NCBI GenBank assembly: GCA_902795065.1
Contig: CADBJR010000001.1
Span: 186,001-250,000, forward strand
Length of the DNA stretch: 64,000 nucleotides
Direction: 5' to 3'
Source: an uncultured Coriobacteriaceae bacterium
Lineage (GTDB): Bacteria; Actinomycetota; Coriobacteriia; Coriobacteriales; Atopobiaceae
Notes under the pieces: model-generated
What the model saw: only the letters and a program-made list of their open reading frames with translations
Databases searched by the model: none
Told to the model about the DNA's origin: nothing
In this document: positions 3,378-18,707 of the stretch, in pieces
How the letters are laid out: each line of letters opens with the position of its first letter
How positions within the stretch are numbered: the stretch's first letter is position 1
Translations under genes and position numbers: made by a program

Positions 3378-4643
3378 TTATGCCTCCTCGAGCTTGAAGG
3401 TGATCGTCTTGAGTCCGGGCTTGGCGGCGAGCTCAGCCTTCTTGAGCTTGACCTGCTCCATCTCGCCGGGTGCGAGGATCGAGCGTTTGAGGTGCTTCAC
3501 GCGCTCGTCGTCGAAGTACACGGATATGTAGCGGTTCTCGTAGACGTTGCCCACGCGGAAGCGCACGACGAGCTCGTCTGCCATGCGTGACGGATCGATC
3601 GACTGCGGGACCGTGTAGCGGATGCCGTCGGTCGCGACGAGGGGGATCTCGCCGACCTCATCGTCGAGGTTGCCCGCCACGAACGCCGCGGCGTTGCGGC
3701 CCGCCACGGCCGCCTCCTGCGAGACGTAGTCCACGAGGTCGTGGACATGCAGGACGTTGCCCGCGGCGAAGATGCCGGGGATGTTGGTCTCGAGGATCTC
3801 GTTCACCACAGGGCCGCGGGTCACGGGCGAAAGCTCGACGCCCGCGGAAAGCGACAGCTCGTTCTCGGGGATGAGGCCGACGGAAAGCAGCAGCGTGTCG
3901 CAGGGATAGGTGACCTCGGTGCCGGGGATCGGCTTGCCGCGGCCATCGACCTCGGCGATCACGACGGCCTCGACGCGCTTCTGGCCCTCGATGCGCACGA
4001 CGGTGTGCGAGAGGAGCAGCGGGATGCCGAAATCGTCGAGGCACTGGACGATATTGCGCTTGAGGCCGCCGGAATACGGCATGAGCTCGGCGACGCAGGC
4101 CACATGCGCGCCCTCGAGGGTCATGCGGCGCGCCATGATGAGTCCGATATCGCCGGAACCCAGGATGACGACCTCGCGGCCGGGCATGAAGCCCTCGATG
4201 TTGACGAGGCGCTGGGCGGTTCCGGCGCTGTAGATGCCGGCGGGACGGAAGCCGGGGATGTTGAGGGCACCGCGGGGACGCTCGCGGCAGCCCATGGCGA
4301 GCACGACGGCCTTGGCCTGGATCTGCACGAGGCCCTCCGCACGGCTGACGACCGTGACGAGCTTGTCGGCCGAGACGTCGATCACCATCGTGTCGAGCAT
4401 GAAGTCGATACCGCCGGAGAGCGCCTGCTCCTCGAAGCGGGCGGCGTATTCGGGGCCGGTGAGCTCCTCGTCGAAGGTGATGAGGCCGAAGCCGTTGTGG
4501 ATGCACTGGTTGAGGATGCCGCCGAGCTCGCGGTCGCGCTCGATGACGAGGATCGAGCCGCAGCCCGCATCACGGGCGGAGATAGCGGCGGCAAGACCGG
4601 CGGGGCCGCCGCCCACGGCGACGATATCGTAGGCTGCCTTCAT
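3378..4643 (-). CDS. NAD(P)/FAD-dependent oxidoreductase, middle gene of GlpA-like operon
   Basis: This 421-residue flavoprotein has an N-terminal FAD-binding GGGPAGLAAA at 11-20, an ATG-type motif MGCRERPRG at 118-126 and a second dinucleotide-binding GSGDIG at 162-167, the two-dinucleotide-domain layout. A cysteine is present in NQCIHNGFG (Cys47). The start overlaps the stop of the upstream oxidoreductase by four bases, so the three genes are co-transcribed and translationally coupled. With its GlpA-like and DUF1667 partners it probably oxidises glycerol-3-phosphate or a similar polyol phosphate; the electron acceptor is not evident. Confidence 0.88.
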   Translation of the reverse strand: MKAAYDIVAVGGGPAGLAAAISARDAGCGSILVIERDRELGGILNQCIHNGFGLITFDEELTGPEYAARFEEQALSGGIDFMLDTMVIDVSADKLVTVVSRAEGLVQIQAKAVVLAMGCRERPRGALNIPGFRPAGIYSAGTAQRLVNIEGFMPGREVVILGSGDIGLIMARRMTLEGAHVACVAELMPYSGGLKRNIVQCLDDFGIPLLLSHTVVRIEGQKRVEAVVIAEVDGRGKPIPGTEVTYPCDTLLLSVGLIPENELSLSAGVELSPVTRGPVVNEILETNIPGIFAAGNVLHVHDLVDYVSQEAAVAGRNAAAFVAGNLDDEVGEIPLVATDGIRYTVPQSIDPSRMADELVVRFRVGNVYENRYISVYFDDERVKHLKRSILAPGEMEQVKLKKAELAAKPGLKTITFKLEEA

Positions 4644-13573: not shown

Positions 13574-14239
13574 CTACGCCTTCCTCTCGGAATTGAACGA
13601 GAACCGCTTCTCCTCCCCCTTGAGGAGCTTGCGGATGTTGGAGCGATGCGCCCAGATCACGAGCGCCGCGACTGCGGCGAGCGGGATGAGCGAGACGGGC
13701 GCGACGCCGAAGATGAGCCCAAGGATGGGCAGCGACGCCGCCGCAGAGCATGAGGCGAGCGAGACGAAACGCGTGGGCAGCACCACCACGAGGAACACGA
13801 CGAGCAGGCAGAGCGCGATCTGCCACTTGAAGGCGAGAGCCGCCCCGAAGCCCGTGGCGATTCCCTTGCCGCCGTGGAACTTGAGGTAGCACGAGAAGAC
13901 GTGGCCGCAGATGCATGCGACGTAGACGATGGCGATGACGATGCCTGAGGGCTGATCCGGAGCGATGGCCTTGACCTCGACCTGCCCCATCGCGGGGATG
14001 ATGAGGCGTGCGATCATCATGGAGACGAAGCCCTTGCCCGCGTCGAGCAGCAGCGTGAGTCCTGATGCGCCCACGCCCGCAGCTCGCGCGACGTTGGTGG
14101 TTCCGATGTTCCCGGAACCCACCTTGCGGACATCGACGCCGTGCGCCCTGGCGACGAGCAGGCCGAAGGGAATGCCGCAGAGCAGGTAGGCGATGATGCA
14201 GGACAGGATGGTCGGGAAGATGAGTCGTGCCATGGTCAT
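13574..14239 (-). CDS. plsY: Glycerol-3-phosphate acyltransferase PlsY
   Basis: This 221-residue membrane enzyme transfers acyl groups from acyl-phosphate to glycerol-3-phosphate. Five or so hydrophobic segments are visible, with the conserved motifs KVGSGNIGTTNVAR and LLDAGKG and a KFHGGKGIATG segment, the three PlsY signatures. The start at 14239 overlaps the der stop (ATGA); ATG at 14233 is an alternative. The C-terminus is charged, as usual. Confidence 0.94.
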   Translation of the reverse strand: MTMARLIFPTILSCIIAYLLCGIPFGLLVARAHGVDVRKVGSGNIGTTNVARAAGVGASGLTLLLDAGKGFVSMMIARLIIPAMGQVEVKAIAPDQPSGIVIAIVYVACICGHVFSCYLKFHGGKGIATGFGAALAFKWQIALCLLVVFLVVVLPTRFVSLASCSAAASLPILGLIFGVAPVSLIPLAAVAALVIWAHRSNIRKLLKGEEKRFSFNSERKA

Positions 14240-15561
14240 CACTCGCTCTTCTTGCGGAACCGCAGACGGATGGGGGTACCCGTGAGGTCGAAGCGCTCGC
14301 GGATACGGTTCTCGAGATAGCGCTCGAAGTTGTCGTCGACGAGATCGGGGAAATTGCAGAAGAACGTGAAGACGGGCGGTTCCGTTCCCGTCTGGGTTGC
14401 GTACATGAGCTTGAGGCGGCGGCCCTTCTCGCTGACCGTATGCCCGCCCTCGCGGAGCGCGGCGAGGAAGTCGTTGAGCTCGGAGGTCCTGATCTGGGCA
14501 CGATGCGCCTGCGCCGCAGCGAGGGCGGCATCGAAGACCTTTCCCACGGCACGGCCCGTGAGCGCGGAGATGTTGAGCGTGGGCGCCCAGGGGGCGAATG
14601 CCATGCGCTGCGCGAGCGACTGCATGAGGTCGGTCTGCTTCTGGGGCTCGTCGATGAGGTCCCATTTGTTGAGCAGGATGACGATGGCGCAGCCGCGGTC
14701 GACCGCCATGTTGGCGAGCTTCTGGTCCTGCTCGGTGACGCCGATCGAGGAGTCGACCACGAGCAGGCAGACATCGGCCTTGTCCATAGCCATGAGGCCG
14801 CGCACGTAGCTGTAGTACTCGACGTCCTCATGCACCTGGTTCTGCTTGCGGATGCCCGCGGTGTCGACAATCTTGATGATCGTGCCGTTGTGGTCGACGA
14901 AGGAGTCGATGGCATCGCGCGTGGTCCCCGCGACATCGGAGACGATCGAGCGGTTGGCTCCGAGCAGGCGGTTGGTGAGCGACGACTTGCCCACGTTGGG
15001 GCGTCCGATGATGGCGATCGAGAGGTCCTCGACCACATCGTCCTCGTCATCGGTCTCCTCGGGGAGCGCCGCGACGATCTCATCGAGCAGATCTCCCGTC
15101 CCGTGTCCGTGGAGCGCGGAGAGCGGCATCGGCTCGCCGATGCCGAGCGACCAGAACTCCCAGAGCTTCTCATCCTCGTGGTCGGGGTCATCGCACTTGT
15201 TGACCATGAGGAAGACGGGCTTGTCGCCCTTGCGCAGGATGCGCGCGACCTCCTCGTCCTCGTCGGTCACGCCGACCGAGCCATCCACGACGAAGATGAT
15301 GACATCGGCCTCGTCGCATGCGGCGAGCGCCTGCTCGCGGATGCGCGGGGCGAAGCTGTCGGTGGATTTGATCGATTCGATGCCGCCGGTGTCGACGAGC
15401 ACGAAGGAGCGCCCGTTCCAGTCGGTGGTGTGGTACGAACGGTCGCGGGTGACGCCGCGCGACTCGTGGACGATGGCATCCCGTGCCTCGGCTAAACGAT
15501 TGACCAGCGTGGACTTTCCCACGTTAGGACGCCCGACGATAGCTACGATAGGTTTGGGCAT
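14239..15561 (-). CDS. der: Ribosome biogenesis GTPase Der (EngA)
   Basis: This 440-residue protein has two tandem GTPase domains, unique to Der, and a C-terminal KH-like domain. The P-loops are GRPNVGKST (10-18) and GRPNVGKSS (186-194); DTGG and DTAG switch II motifs and NKCD/NKWD specificity motifs are present. It acts in 50S subunit maturation. It heads the der-plsY-gpsA-rpe operon; its promoter must lie in the 227 bases shared with the divergent 79-residue gene. Confidence 0.96.
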   Translation of the reverse strand: MPKPIVAIVGRPNVGKSTLVNRLAEARDAIVHESRGVTRDRSYHTTDWNGRSFVLVDTGGIESIKSTDSFAPRIREQALAACDEADVIIFVVDGSVGVTDEDEEVARILRKGDKPVFLMVNKCDDPDHEDEKLWEFWSLGIGEPMPLSALHGHGTGDLLDEIVAALPEETDDEDDVVEDLSIAIIGRPNVGKSSLTNRLLGANRSIVSDVAGTTRDAIDSFVDHNGTIIKIVDTAGIRKQNQVHEDVEYYSYVRGLMAMDKADVCLLVVDSSIGVTEQDQKLANMAVDRGCAIVILLNKWDLIDEPQKQTDLMQSLAQRMAFAPWAPTLNISALTGRAVGKVFDAALAAAQAHRAQIRTSELNDFLAALREGGHTVSEKGRRLKLMYATQTGTEPPVFTFFCNFPDLVDDNFERYLENRIRERFDLTGTPIRLRFRKKSE

Positions 15562-15788
15562 GGCACTCCTCAGACTATGCGGTTAACTTCTCAATGATAG
15601 CAGAAGCGGGAATAGATGGCGCATTCCAGCCGTTTGGAACGCGTTCCTGCAGCTTTGACGAATGATGCGTTACATACTTCATCACTTGGAAACTAATCTT
15701 CTCGATTCTGAGACGGAATCGTCTGCGCTTACGTATAGGGGTAGAAAGACCGAATAGGAACCCGGCGCAACGAGAGATAGGAACTGCA
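15562..15788. promoter_or_regulatory. Divergent control region between der and the 79-residue gene
   Basis: This 227-base gap contains a perfect 12-bp palindrome GGAACGCGTTCC at 15636-15647 and an inverted repeat CGATTC-N7-GAATCG at 15703-15721. A TATAGG at 15734-15739 might be a -10 box for the plus-strand gene, but no good -35 was found. The same GTATAGG string occurs at 16149-16155 ahead of the next plus-strand gene. Confidence 0.35.
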
Positions 15789-16028
15789 ATGGCAGATAAC
15801 AAGGTTTTCGATGGCATCGAGATTCCCGACGATCTTCTCGACAGCATCGCGGGCGGAGTGCTCACCGACACGCACAAGGAATTCCTTTGCGCGCTCATCT
15901 CCTCCGCCAAGAAGGGCGGCTACACGATGGATGACTTCGTCCAGGACCTTGTCAGCTTCGCCCCAATTAGCGATTCTGATGCGCAGGAGGTCTGGGACTA
16001 TATCTATCCCATCTGGGATCAGCTGTAA
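15789..16028 (+). CDS. Small protein with double-glycine leader-like motif, function unknown
   Basis: This 79-residue acidic protein is not recognised. Residues 10-25 read IEIPDDLLDSIAGGVL, which closely resembles double-glycine leaders of bacteriocin or RiPP precursors (acidic helix, L-x3-A-G-G). Cleavage after Gly23 would release about 56 residues, including one cysteine, aromatic residues and a tryptophan-rich end (EVWDYIYPIWDQL). AGGAA lies 5 bases upstream of the ATG. It is on the strand opposite to its surroundings, with lower GC and many AT-ending codons. A hairpin terminator follows. No peptidase-containing transporter or modification enzyme is adjacent; only a membrane protein follows. 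Confidence 0.65.
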   Translation: MADNKVFDGIEIPDDLLDSIAGGVLTDTHKEFLCALISSAKKGGYTMDDFVQDLVSFAPISDSDAQEVWDYIYPIWDQL

Positions 16029-16055
16029 GCCTGCATCACGACAGAGCACCGCAAA

Positions 16056-16083
16056 GCCGCCGGTATTCCGGCGGCATTTCGTT
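16056..16083 (+). terminator. Hairpin terminator after the 79-residue gene
   Basis: GCCGCCGG-TATT-CCGGCGGC is a perfect 8-bp stem at 16056-16075, followed by ATTTCGTT. The T tract is short, so termination may be partial, allowing some read-through into the membrane protein gene. Confidence 0.6.
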
Positions 16084-16180
16084 ACGTAACAAAGCTGCAT
16101 CAAGATAGGTGATTCCAAACACAGGGGCGCGTTGCAGGCGTACCGTCTGTATAGGAAGGCCCTTAGGTTAGGAGACCGAG

Positions 16181-17308
16181 ATGATGCACTTCTTCCCCGA
16201 TGGGGACGGCGGCTTTTTCGGATACGATGATCCCGTTCTCGATTTCGAGGGCGGTGCCATCCTCACCATCATCGCCGCGGTTTCCATCACGGCCATCGTG
16301 GTTCCGTTTGGAACGAACCCCGAGCTGTTCGCCGACGGCATAGCGTGCGCGCTTCTCGGCTTCATCCTCATCGGATTATCGGCCGGCGAAGGCGGGCTGC
16401 CCTTCCTGCGTCCGCTTGCCCTTCCGCTGTTCGTCTATTTCCTCGCATCGAGCTCCTTTGCGCTTGAGGCTATCTCGGGCGAGTTCGGGCTGCTCATGTG
16501 GCCTATCCTCGGGTTCTACCTCATCTTCGCCGGGCTCGGTTTGTACGGTGTGCTTCTGGGAGGAGAAGAGGTGGAGGGCGCGATCGTCCTCTTCACGCTG
16601 GGGTTCGGCGCTCCCATCTGGTTTACCTGCATAACCGCGGGAATGGACGATTACCAGAACTGGCTCTATGGAACCTTCTCGTTCTATCTCCTGCGCGTGG
16701 CGACGATCATAGGCCTGGTTTGGGCTGCCATCGTGCTCGTCATGTGGTTCATCGCCATCGTCAAAGGCCAGATCAGCTTCAATGCTATTGTCATCAGGCT
16801 GGCGCAGATCGCCCTCGGGGTTGTTCCCGTGTTCTTGGGCGGCATCCTGGGTGGGTTCTTTCCCAACGGCCCCTTGTCGCTTGCGGGTTTGGCGGCGATC
16901 CTCGCCGTGTTCGCCCTTGCCGGCTGGGCATCTGAGCTCATAGCATCCGATAAGGACGCTGATGCGGACATCTTCCCAGTTGTCACGTTCCTCGCTTTTG
17001 TCGGTGCGATAGGGTTTCTGACCTACGCCAATTTCAGGGCCAACGCGGAATTCCTCGTTTTCCTGCGTCCCTTTGCCAATTGGTCGTTCCTTGTGAACGA
17101 GATGTTCGCGGCCAGCCAGGTTGCCGCGAATGCCGTCGGCGCGGTCTGCTCCGGCATCGTGTGGGTCTTCACCAGGATCTTCGATTTGTCGTCGGTAACC
17201 ATCGAAGCGCCCACCCACATCGGTTTCTTCGTGCTCCTGATCCTATCCGCCGTTGCGGTTGGCGTCGGCCAATCGTTTGCGAGAAAACAGGCGTCGAGCA
17301 CCAAGTAA
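16181..17308 (+). CDS. Polytopic membrane protein, function unknown
   Basis: This 375-residue protein is almost entirely hydrophobic, with roughly ten membrane segments evenly spread and a short N-terminal aromatic and acidic stretch (MMHFFPDGDGG). The C-terminus is basic (ARKQASSTK), suggesting a cytoplasmic tail. No transporter, protease or enzyme signature was recognised; the acidic loops (SDKDADAD, about 263-270) are the only polar clusters. AGGAG lies 10 bases upstream of the ATG. It follows the 79-residue gene by 152 bases and is convergent with the DUF512 gene. The two plus-strand genes look like an inserted cassette; it could export or confer immunity to the small protein, but that is speculation. 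Confidence 0.65.
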   Translation: MMHFFPDGDGGFFGYDDPVLDFEGGAILTIIAAVSITAIVVPFGTNPELFADGIACALLGFILIGLSAGEGGLPFLRPLALPLFVYFLASSSFALEAISGEFGLLMWPILGFYLIFAGLGLYGVLLGGEEVEGAIVLFTLGFGAPIWFTCITAGMDDYQNWLYGTFSFYLLRVATIIGLVWAAIVLVMWFIAIVKGQISFNAIVIRLAQIALGVVPVFLGGILGGFFPNGPLSLAGLAAILAVFALAGWASELIASDKDADADIFPVVTFLAFVGAIGFLTYANFRANAEFLVFLRPFANWSFLVNEMFAASQVAANAVGAVCSGIVWVFTRIFDLSSVTIEAPTHIGFFVLLILSAVAVGVGQSFARKQASSTK

Positions 17309-17336: not shown

Positions 17337-18707
17337 TTAGGCGCCCAAAGCGGCAAGCAGCGTGTCGAGCAGGCAGTGCGGCGTGGTGACTGCGAGAAGC
17401 GCCTCTCCCCCGCGTTTGGAGATTGCCTGGTCGATGCTGTCGAATGATCCGCCGTCGAGCGTGAGCATGTCGCTGTTGAACATGACTTCGGGCAGGATGA
17501 CAAGGGTGCCGTCGAGGCTGCTCGGGAGCTGGTCGAGCAGGTCGCATTCGACGATAAGACCCGTCACGTTGACATCTCCACCGAAGTAATCGTTGCGTAT
17601 GGCTTGGGCTGCCATGCGGCCGCCGAACACAGCGGCGAGCGATGACATGACCCCATAGGCAGCTTCTCCGCACACGAGGACCGCGGTGCGACCGCTCTTA
17701 TCGAGGCCGGCCGTGATGCGCGCGATGTCATCGGTGCGCTCGGAGCAGCATTCCGCCAGCTCGTCGAGGAAGCTCCGCAGCATGCCGATCCCGTCGTAGA
17801 ACTGCGGGTAGCCGTCGTACTCCTCGGCAGGCGGCACCTCGACCCCCGCTGCAAGGTAGAACTCGTCGGACAGCTGGAAACGCGTCTGTCCATACTTCTG
17901 GCGTGCGCGCTCCTGGTAGGGCCTCACCTGTTCGACAACCCTGAGGGAAGCCTCCCGATCCGAGACGTACGAACGCTCGAACCGCTTCTGGTGCTTTGTG
18001 TAACCCACGGGAACAAGAGCCGTCGAGGTGATCTGGGGATGCGCCTCGATGTAATCGAGCGTCTTCGCAAGCTCGTCGCCGTCATTGAGATCGGGGCAGA
18101 GCACGATCTGCGCATGGATCTCGATACCCGCTTCCATGAGCTGCTCGAGCACGTCGATGCCGCGCTGCGCGTGCTTCCCGATGAGGCGTTTGCGGATATC
18201 GGGAGAGATAGCGTGGAGCGAGACGTTCATGGGCTCGAGACGGCACTCGATGATCCGCTGGACATCCTCGTCCGAGACGTTCGTGAGCGTCACGAAGTTT
18301 CCCTGAAGGAACGAGAGCCTGAAGTCGTCGTCGCGCAGGCTGAGCGAGGCGCGCGCATCGGGCGGCAGCATGCTCATGAAGCAGAAGATGCAGCCGTTCA
18401 CGCAGGTGCGGACGCCGTCGAACAGGACATCGGTGAATTCGATGCCCCAGTCCTCCCCCGCCTCGCGGTAGAGCTCCGCGCCGTATACGAGGCCGTCATG
18501 CGGGTCGAGGACTTCGAGCTCGCAATAAGCACCGTCGGTCTCCCAGCGCCATGCGATGATGTCGGGCAGCTCGGCGCCGTTCACGGAAAGGATGCGCATG
18601 CCCGGCTCGATGCCCGCGCAATCGGCGGGACTCCCCTCCTCGACGGAAGCGACCCACGCCCCGATGCCGGGGGTCTCGGTCGGTGCATAGTCGGCACGTT
18701 CGGCCAT
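17337..18707 (-). CDS. DUF512 radical-SAM/PDZ iron-sulfur protein
   Basis: This 456-residue protein combines an N-terminal PDZ-like domain (about 15-75), a radical-SAM-type cysteine motif C102-x3-C106-x2-C109 and a C-terminal DUF512 region. The cysteine spacing fits a [4Fe-4S] cluster that would bind S-adenosylmethionine. In many Firmicutes this gene lies directly upstream of der, plsY and gpsA. Here it is separated from der by the two plus-strand genes at 15.8-17.3 kb. It follows ispH by nine bases. The reaction is unknown. Confidence 0.88.
   Translation of the reverse strand: MAERADYAPTETPGIGAWVASVEEGSPADCAGIEPGMRILSVNGAELPDIIAWRWETDGAYCELEVLDPHDGLVYGAELYREAGEDWGIEFTDVLFDGVRTCVNGCIFCFMSMLPPDARASLSLRDDDFRLSFLQGNFVTLTNVSDEDVQRIIECRLEPMNVSLHAISPDIRKRLIGKHAQRGIDVLEQLMEAGIEIHAQIVLCPDLNDGDELAKTLDYIEAHPQITSTALVPVGYTKHQKRFERSYVSDREASLRVVEQVRPYQERARQKYGQTRFQLSDEFYLAAGVEVPPAEEYDGYPQFYDGIGMLRSFLDELAECCSERTDDIARITAGLDKSGRTAVLVCGEAAYGVMSSLAAVFGGRMAAQAIRNDYFGGDVNVTGLIVECDLLDQLPSSLDGTLVILPEVMFNSDMLTLDGGSFDSIDQAISKRGGEALLAVTTPHCLLDTLLAALGA

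Follow-up and report, generated by a model that had tools for sequence, protein, structure and literature searches.

Between the der GTPase gene (14239-15561, minus strand) and a DUF512 gene (17337-18707, minus strand), the window, that is, the whole 64,000-nt stretch of DNA analysed here, carries two plus-strand genes encoding a 79-aa double-glycine (GG) protein (15789-16028, ATG at 15789, stop included) and a 375-aa polytopic membrane protein (16181-17308). This arrangement raises the question of whether the two genes form a peptide cassette or whether the small protein belongs to a system encoded elsewhere. Both open reading frames were real, as an earlier note made from the sequence had proposed, and its description of them as an insertion gained support from G001 and G003, two genomes of the same genus that are at least 98% complete, lack both genes and have DUF512 directly after der; der orthologues were found in 9 of 10 genomes searched, at 65-91% identity over their length. 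The region around the small gene is AT-richer than its surroundings, also as noted earlier (GC 0.49-0.56 across 15500-16250 versus about 0.60-0.66 in flanking genes), and the gene is followed by the hairpin described there (16056-16075, plus strand), which has eight G-C pairs and is terminator-like, with a weak T tail and with 8 of 200 shuffles of the region folding as well. Neither protein matched a Pfam or NCBIfam family above cut-off; sub-threshold, local matches to PAPS_reduct and FrdC were taken as chance. Searches of IMG/VR contigs for a viral origin found relatives of neither protein, and a consensus scan for sigma-70 promoters, run before the motif described below was noticed, returned none.

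We compared the locus with 101 relatives, surveyed for the membrane gene and the small-protein family, and with 400 genomes of the class, surveyed for the family profile and the exporter gene ABC1. All are MAGs, mostly draft assemblies in which contigs may be misbinned (contamination of the host genome, G000, is 3.5%); the host genome was covered by searches and retrieved stretches, and genes in retrieved loci were called by a simple script. Members of the small-protein family turned out to be spread one by one across Coriobacteriia. The host genome has four of them at unlinked sites, the window protein and paralogues on contig C6 (44% identity), at C1:5754 and, weakly, on C9. Further genera of both the family and the order have relatives, among them Olsenella sp. 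SIG37 and the MAG RUG12252. Since homologues in the own genome (E 2e-8 and 2e-6) and in other genera keep the leader, the GG motif is not a chance string, and what the earlier reading saw as a bacteriocin-type leader, IPDDLLDSIAGG ending at residue 23, is a genuine GG-type leader. This leader spans residues 1-23 (15789-15857, plus strand), ends in ...IEIPDDLLDSIAGG and is modelled as a helix from residue 14 to 22, reaching up to the GG. In an alignment of 18 members, L17, G22, G23 and G44 were invariant and E11 and K41 near-invariant; L023 was counted as a member though its leader is longer than in the others. The window protein carries the residues expected of a C39 substrate (I-12, L-7, I-4, G-2 and G-1), with Leu, not Glu or Asp, at position -8. 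One family member, L115:788-1030 (also given as 788-1027), has Gly-Arg (VAGRAEV) where its close relative L114:2799-3041 has Gly-Gly; the C-terminal alignment of both with the window protein is unreliable. On contig C1 of the host, a GG paralogue adjoins a large protein with SpoIIE-type phosphatase similarity (L022:5742-9302), and a large protein similar to it in size and position adjoins a GG paralogue in G008 (L030:3224-8487); NHLM exporters, too, can have STAS and SpoIIE-like genes next to them (L050, L052).

Cleavage after the GG would leave a predicted mature product of 56 aa (15858-16025, plus strand) with a net charge of -7 and a pI of 4.05. The small-protein model (pLDDT 81) places helices at residues 27-42, 47-57 and 65-78 behind the leader helix. 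Orthologues of the C6 paralogue (L021) from three genomes in different genera were 72-76% identical in the core and 64-68% in the leader, with a dN/dS of about 0.2, so that the core is at least as conserved as the leader in these distant comparisons. The proposed check of leader conservation against core variability thus came out the other way: since family members retain both the GG leader and the helical C-terminal part with its K..G motif, this is, judged from the alignments, not a hypervariable bacteriocin core. A PDB fold search with the model gave no hit at E up to 0.001 (best probability 0.23). Homology to RidA/YjgF, suggested by A2 profile matches with E down to 3e-4, was rejected because these rest on a short helical stretch.

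The earlier remark that no dedicated transporter is visible holds at the locus but not for the genome, and its guess at a remote exporter was borne out to the extent that the genome does encode a C39/NHLM exporter at another site, one that accompanies the family across genomes and has a promoter in common with the small gene on its sigma side. The host genome encodes one protein with a C39 peptidase domain (residues about 1-140), which lies on contig C6 and matches NHLM_micro_ABC1 at 928 bits (cut-off 853). Its operon, far from the small gene and beside an ECF sigma gene, consists of a short HlyD-like gene, whose product matches its model over no more than the first 73 positions, then ABC1, then an ABC2-like gene (691 bits against a cut-off of 709). 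Among the 400 class genomes, 34 matched the family profile, 54 had ABC1 over cut-off and 32 had both; ABC1 over cut-off was thus present in 32 of 34 profile-positive genomes versus 22 of 366 others (Fisher p=2e-30, a value inflated by relatedness). The two exceptions were G318, with a partial ABC1 (686 bits, model positions 137-709), and G298, with a short leader-only match. As many profile matches cover the leader only, this co-occurrence concerns the GG-leader type; all nine genomes with longer family matches had ABC1. A test confined to genera with variation put the probability that the nesting of peptide and exporter arose by chance at 0.005, calculated from few genomes. The same-genus genomes G001 and G003 were found to have no peptide, C39 exporter, Nif11 leader or sigma-linked small protein (see below). 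Family members also stand next to the system: in G067, one member and the sigma/HlyD/ABC1 operon are divergent, each with its own promoter site, and in G008 one sits immediately before the genes for the sigma-linked protein and sigma.

The link between the small gene and this remote exporter is a predicted promoter. Comparison of the upstream regions of unlinked members revealed the pattern TGAGACG-N15/16-CGTATAA, which was fixed from six sites and can be written as TG(A/G)GAC(G/A)-N15/16-CGTATAA. The site of the small gene, 80 bp upstream of it (15709-15739, plus strand), consists of a -35-like TGAGACG (15709-15715), a 16-nt spacer and a -10-like CGTATAG (15732-15738). Ten of 68 GG genes outside the discovery set had the pattern upstream, versus 15 of 593 control genes (p=6e-5, with rows that are not fully independent because loci overlap); some of the control matches are regulon genes or GG genes missed by the filter, which works against the contrast. 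Searched genome-wide, ten peptide-bearing genomes yielded 47 matches versus 7 in a reversed control, and five genomes without the system yielded 5 versus 4. A matrix built from other genera only had a single match of at least 12 bits on either strand of the window, at 15709 (22.6 bits), the best score upstream of 49 other window genes being 8.4, and it also found the promoter of the host's own sigma operon beside the exporter (22.2 bits). The small gene and the exporter-side sigma operon thus have a predicted promoter in common, which points to membership of one regulon. The host's sigma operon and exporter are convergent, and of the two it is the sigma operon, not the exporter genes, that has the motif upstream. 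At the head of the sigma/exporter side in G059, G012, G038 and G067, the site comes before a conserved 70-90-aa gene; where the loci could be resolved, ECF sigma, HlyD-like and ABC1 genes follow. The strongest candidate site of the L022 paralogue is weak (14.1 bits) and was lost with the other-genera-only matrix. In G002 (L031:1602-2512, contig C61), a 212-aa gene has the promoter, and a GG family member comes after it on that strand; the two may form one operon.

In the own genome, the pattern matched eight times (none in the reversed control): before two GG genes (that of the window and the C6 paralogue), two lipoprotein-like genes, the gene for a CnaB-like surface protein, a STAS/HATPase pair, the gene for a 157-aa protein and one further gene. 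Because the promoter also precedes lipoprotein, CnaB-like and STAS genes, the predicted regulon is wider than export. L162 (G000:C5, motif at 3739, minus strand) has the promoter before a 954-aa surface-type protein with CnaB-like sequence. The 70-90-aa protein preceding the exporter-linked ECF sigma gene (L046:14852-15058, minus strand, in G000:C6; homologues in L050, L052, L058, L027 and L033) ends in a leader-like motif, L-DD-ELDMLAAAG, in which AAG replaces GG. It was present in 6 of 7 peptide-bearing relatives versus 8 of 94 others (p=1.5e-5), the exception, G004, being 68% complete. From its sequence, this protein is a possible uncleavable leader mimic or anti-sigma.

Having this rare promoter in common with the sigma-factor gene beside a tag-cutting exporter, the small protein probably belongs to a scattered set of several proteins cut and secreted together. 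More specifically, we consider it a member of a dispersed ECF regulon and a GG-leader precursor that the remote exporter would cleave and secrete, and assign this reading a probability of roughly 0.73.

The neighbouring membrane gene, in turn, is probably outside this system. The earlier note had proposed that the two genes form a pair of peptide and immunity or export protein, in which the membrane protein would be the dedicated partner of the peptide. The genes are adjacent and co-directional, and the membrane protein, which a low-confidence single-sequence model (pLDDT 47) gives about 12 helical segments, occurs among the 101 relatives only in G000 and G002, two same-genus genomes that both have the exporter and peptides. 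Against such a pair, many genomes have a homologue of the small gene but not the membrane gene, which is missing from all peptide-bearing genomes of other genera, and G002 carries the membrane gene (72-74% identity, on two contigs) at the same site as in the window without the small gene: it lies between der and DUF512 on one contig and adjoins der at the end of the other, with a der-to-membrane gap of just 150-214 bp. The co-occurrence on which the proposal was staked beforehand is therefore absent, a terminator-like hairpin separates the two genes in the window, and no ECF promoter site was found upstream of the membrane gene. We consequently regard a dedicated partnership as highly improbable. 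The simplest history suggested by these sequences is two separate insertions, with the membrane gene probably being one of its own and not a dedicated partner of the small protein; as G000 and G002 also have the exporter system in common, the membrane protein may still have a lineage-specific role within these two genomes. The two G002 contigs (C1 and C40; L019 and L020) carry two different der loci, 91% and 95% identical to that of the window, and differing membrane-gene alleles, which suggests mixed strains in the bin.

Two further readings concern the small protein itself. It could be a small cytosolic protein of an ECF envelope-stress regulon that is never cleaved or exported, the GG merely capping a helix; this would fit with a C-terminal part conserved to the same level as the leader and predicted to fold into a three-helix domain, and with a regulon that includes non-exported regulators such as the STAS and HATPase genes. 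Such a protein would, however, hardly account for a GG that is invariant in 18 members, for a family found almost only alongside a C39 exporter, or for members located beside exporter/sigma operons and in a Nif11 RiPP cluster, which makes this reading quite unlikely. Conversely, the small protein could be a bacteriocin in the proper, antimicrobial sense or a modified RiPP, of the class II-like, Nif11 or CTB type; with respect to export this is a sub-case of the preferred reading, from which it differs on modification and a killing role. The leaders of relatives weakly match class II leader models and, in 6 of 18 members (best E 1.2e-4), the CTB-family bacteriocin model, and relatives share a cluster with a radical SAM protein and a PoyD-like epimerase. 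The window protein, however, has none of these leader matches, the CTB matches stay under the curated cut-off, the own genome is without a PoyD-type gene, no immunity gene was recognised, and a core that is acidic and conserved speaks against a classical bacteriocin of the hypervariable kind; we therefore judge a bacteriocin or RiPP in the strict sense unlikely. The PoyD-like radical SAM epimerase gene lies in a Nif11 peptide cluster together with window-protein relatives in G017 (C261:21458-22521; L114, L116, L119) and G361 (C26:27778-28838; L117, L118); the match is split in two, and in both genomes a TGA occurs in the frame that carries the N-terminal part.

Set against known systems, the window protein appears, by analogy, to work like NHLP, Nif11 or CTB precursors. 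Haft et al. 2010 (PMC2887384; models TIGR03793/03798 for the precursors and TIGR03794/03796/03797 for the exporter) defined the NHLP and Nif11 precursors that go with an NHLM exporter of three genes, and C39 exporters with GG precursors have been described in cyanobacteria (PMC3140520). NHLP/Nif11 (N11P) systems likewise combine a Gly-Gly leader with an ABC1 carrying a C39 peptidase, an ABC2-like gene and an HlyD-like gene, and Nif11-type proteins occur in the same genomes as the window family, in places in the same cluster. In contrast to them, the window leader is about 23 aa long and has no nitrile-hydratase or Nif11 domain, the core, instead of being short and hypervariable, is about 55 aa, acidic, helical and conserved, and the genes are scattered and tied to the exporter by a promoter. 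In the same line, the window protein had no NCBIfam match to the NHLP leader family (TIGR03793) up to E 10 and none to the Nif11-like leader family (TIGR03798), and the L021 orthologue cores, acidic and 72-76% identical, are no hypervariable Cys/Ser/Thr-rich cores. The CTB family (NF038167) and cyanobacterial GG precursors resemble it in having a short GG leader and a C39 exporter, and several relatives show sub-threshold CTB similarity; the best of them reached 22.2 bits against a cut-off of 32 bits, the window protein gave no match, and the conserved core is unlike CTB. Class II GG-leader bacteriocins (PF10439, TIGR01847) are alike in leader type and C39 processing logic, whereas the window locus is without a local exporter or immunity gene and encodes an acidic core; neither model matched the window protein, and the neighbouring membrane gene, as a candidate for immunity, does not co-occur with the small gene. 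As the window protein fails the NHLP, Nif11 and CTB models, we do not file it under them. Known ECF sigma regulons, with their autoregulated promoters, likewise have a conserved bipartite (-35/-10) promoter before the sigma operon and unlinked genes, but the present one differs in joining the sigma gene of a C39 exporter with GG proteins. Among the papers searched, none joined NHLP with Coriobacteria or described an ECF regulon of this kind.

In the mechanism we propose for the GG-leader precursor, the exporter-linked ECF sigma would transcribe the small gene from its own ECF-type promoter, the C39 peptidase of the exporter would cut after Gly23, removing residues 1-23, and an acidic, three-helix, 56-aa mini-protein would be released. 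About four scattered family members in the host genome would use the one exporter, and the product may act outside the cell as a signal, a surface factor or an atypical bacteriocin. More tentatively, these proteins could represent a new class of secreted, folded, acidic helical mini-proteins of Coriobacteriia, with dispersed genes, one C39 exporter and an autoregulated ECF sigma, in which the sigma-linked protein, encoded by the first gene of the sigma operon, could act as a leader mimic that resists cleavage and ties the activity of sigma to exporter occupancy.

It is hard to place an orphan GG protein that has no exporter or modification enzyme next to it. In the present case, a common promoter together with genome-wide co-occurrence assigns one such protein, at the strength given above, to a remote NHLM exporter, and the combination of motif and GG leader provides a searchable rule for finding companions across gut Coriobacteriia. 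If confirmed, this would reveal a co-ordinated secretion programme of small conserved proteins, not one bacteriocin cluster.
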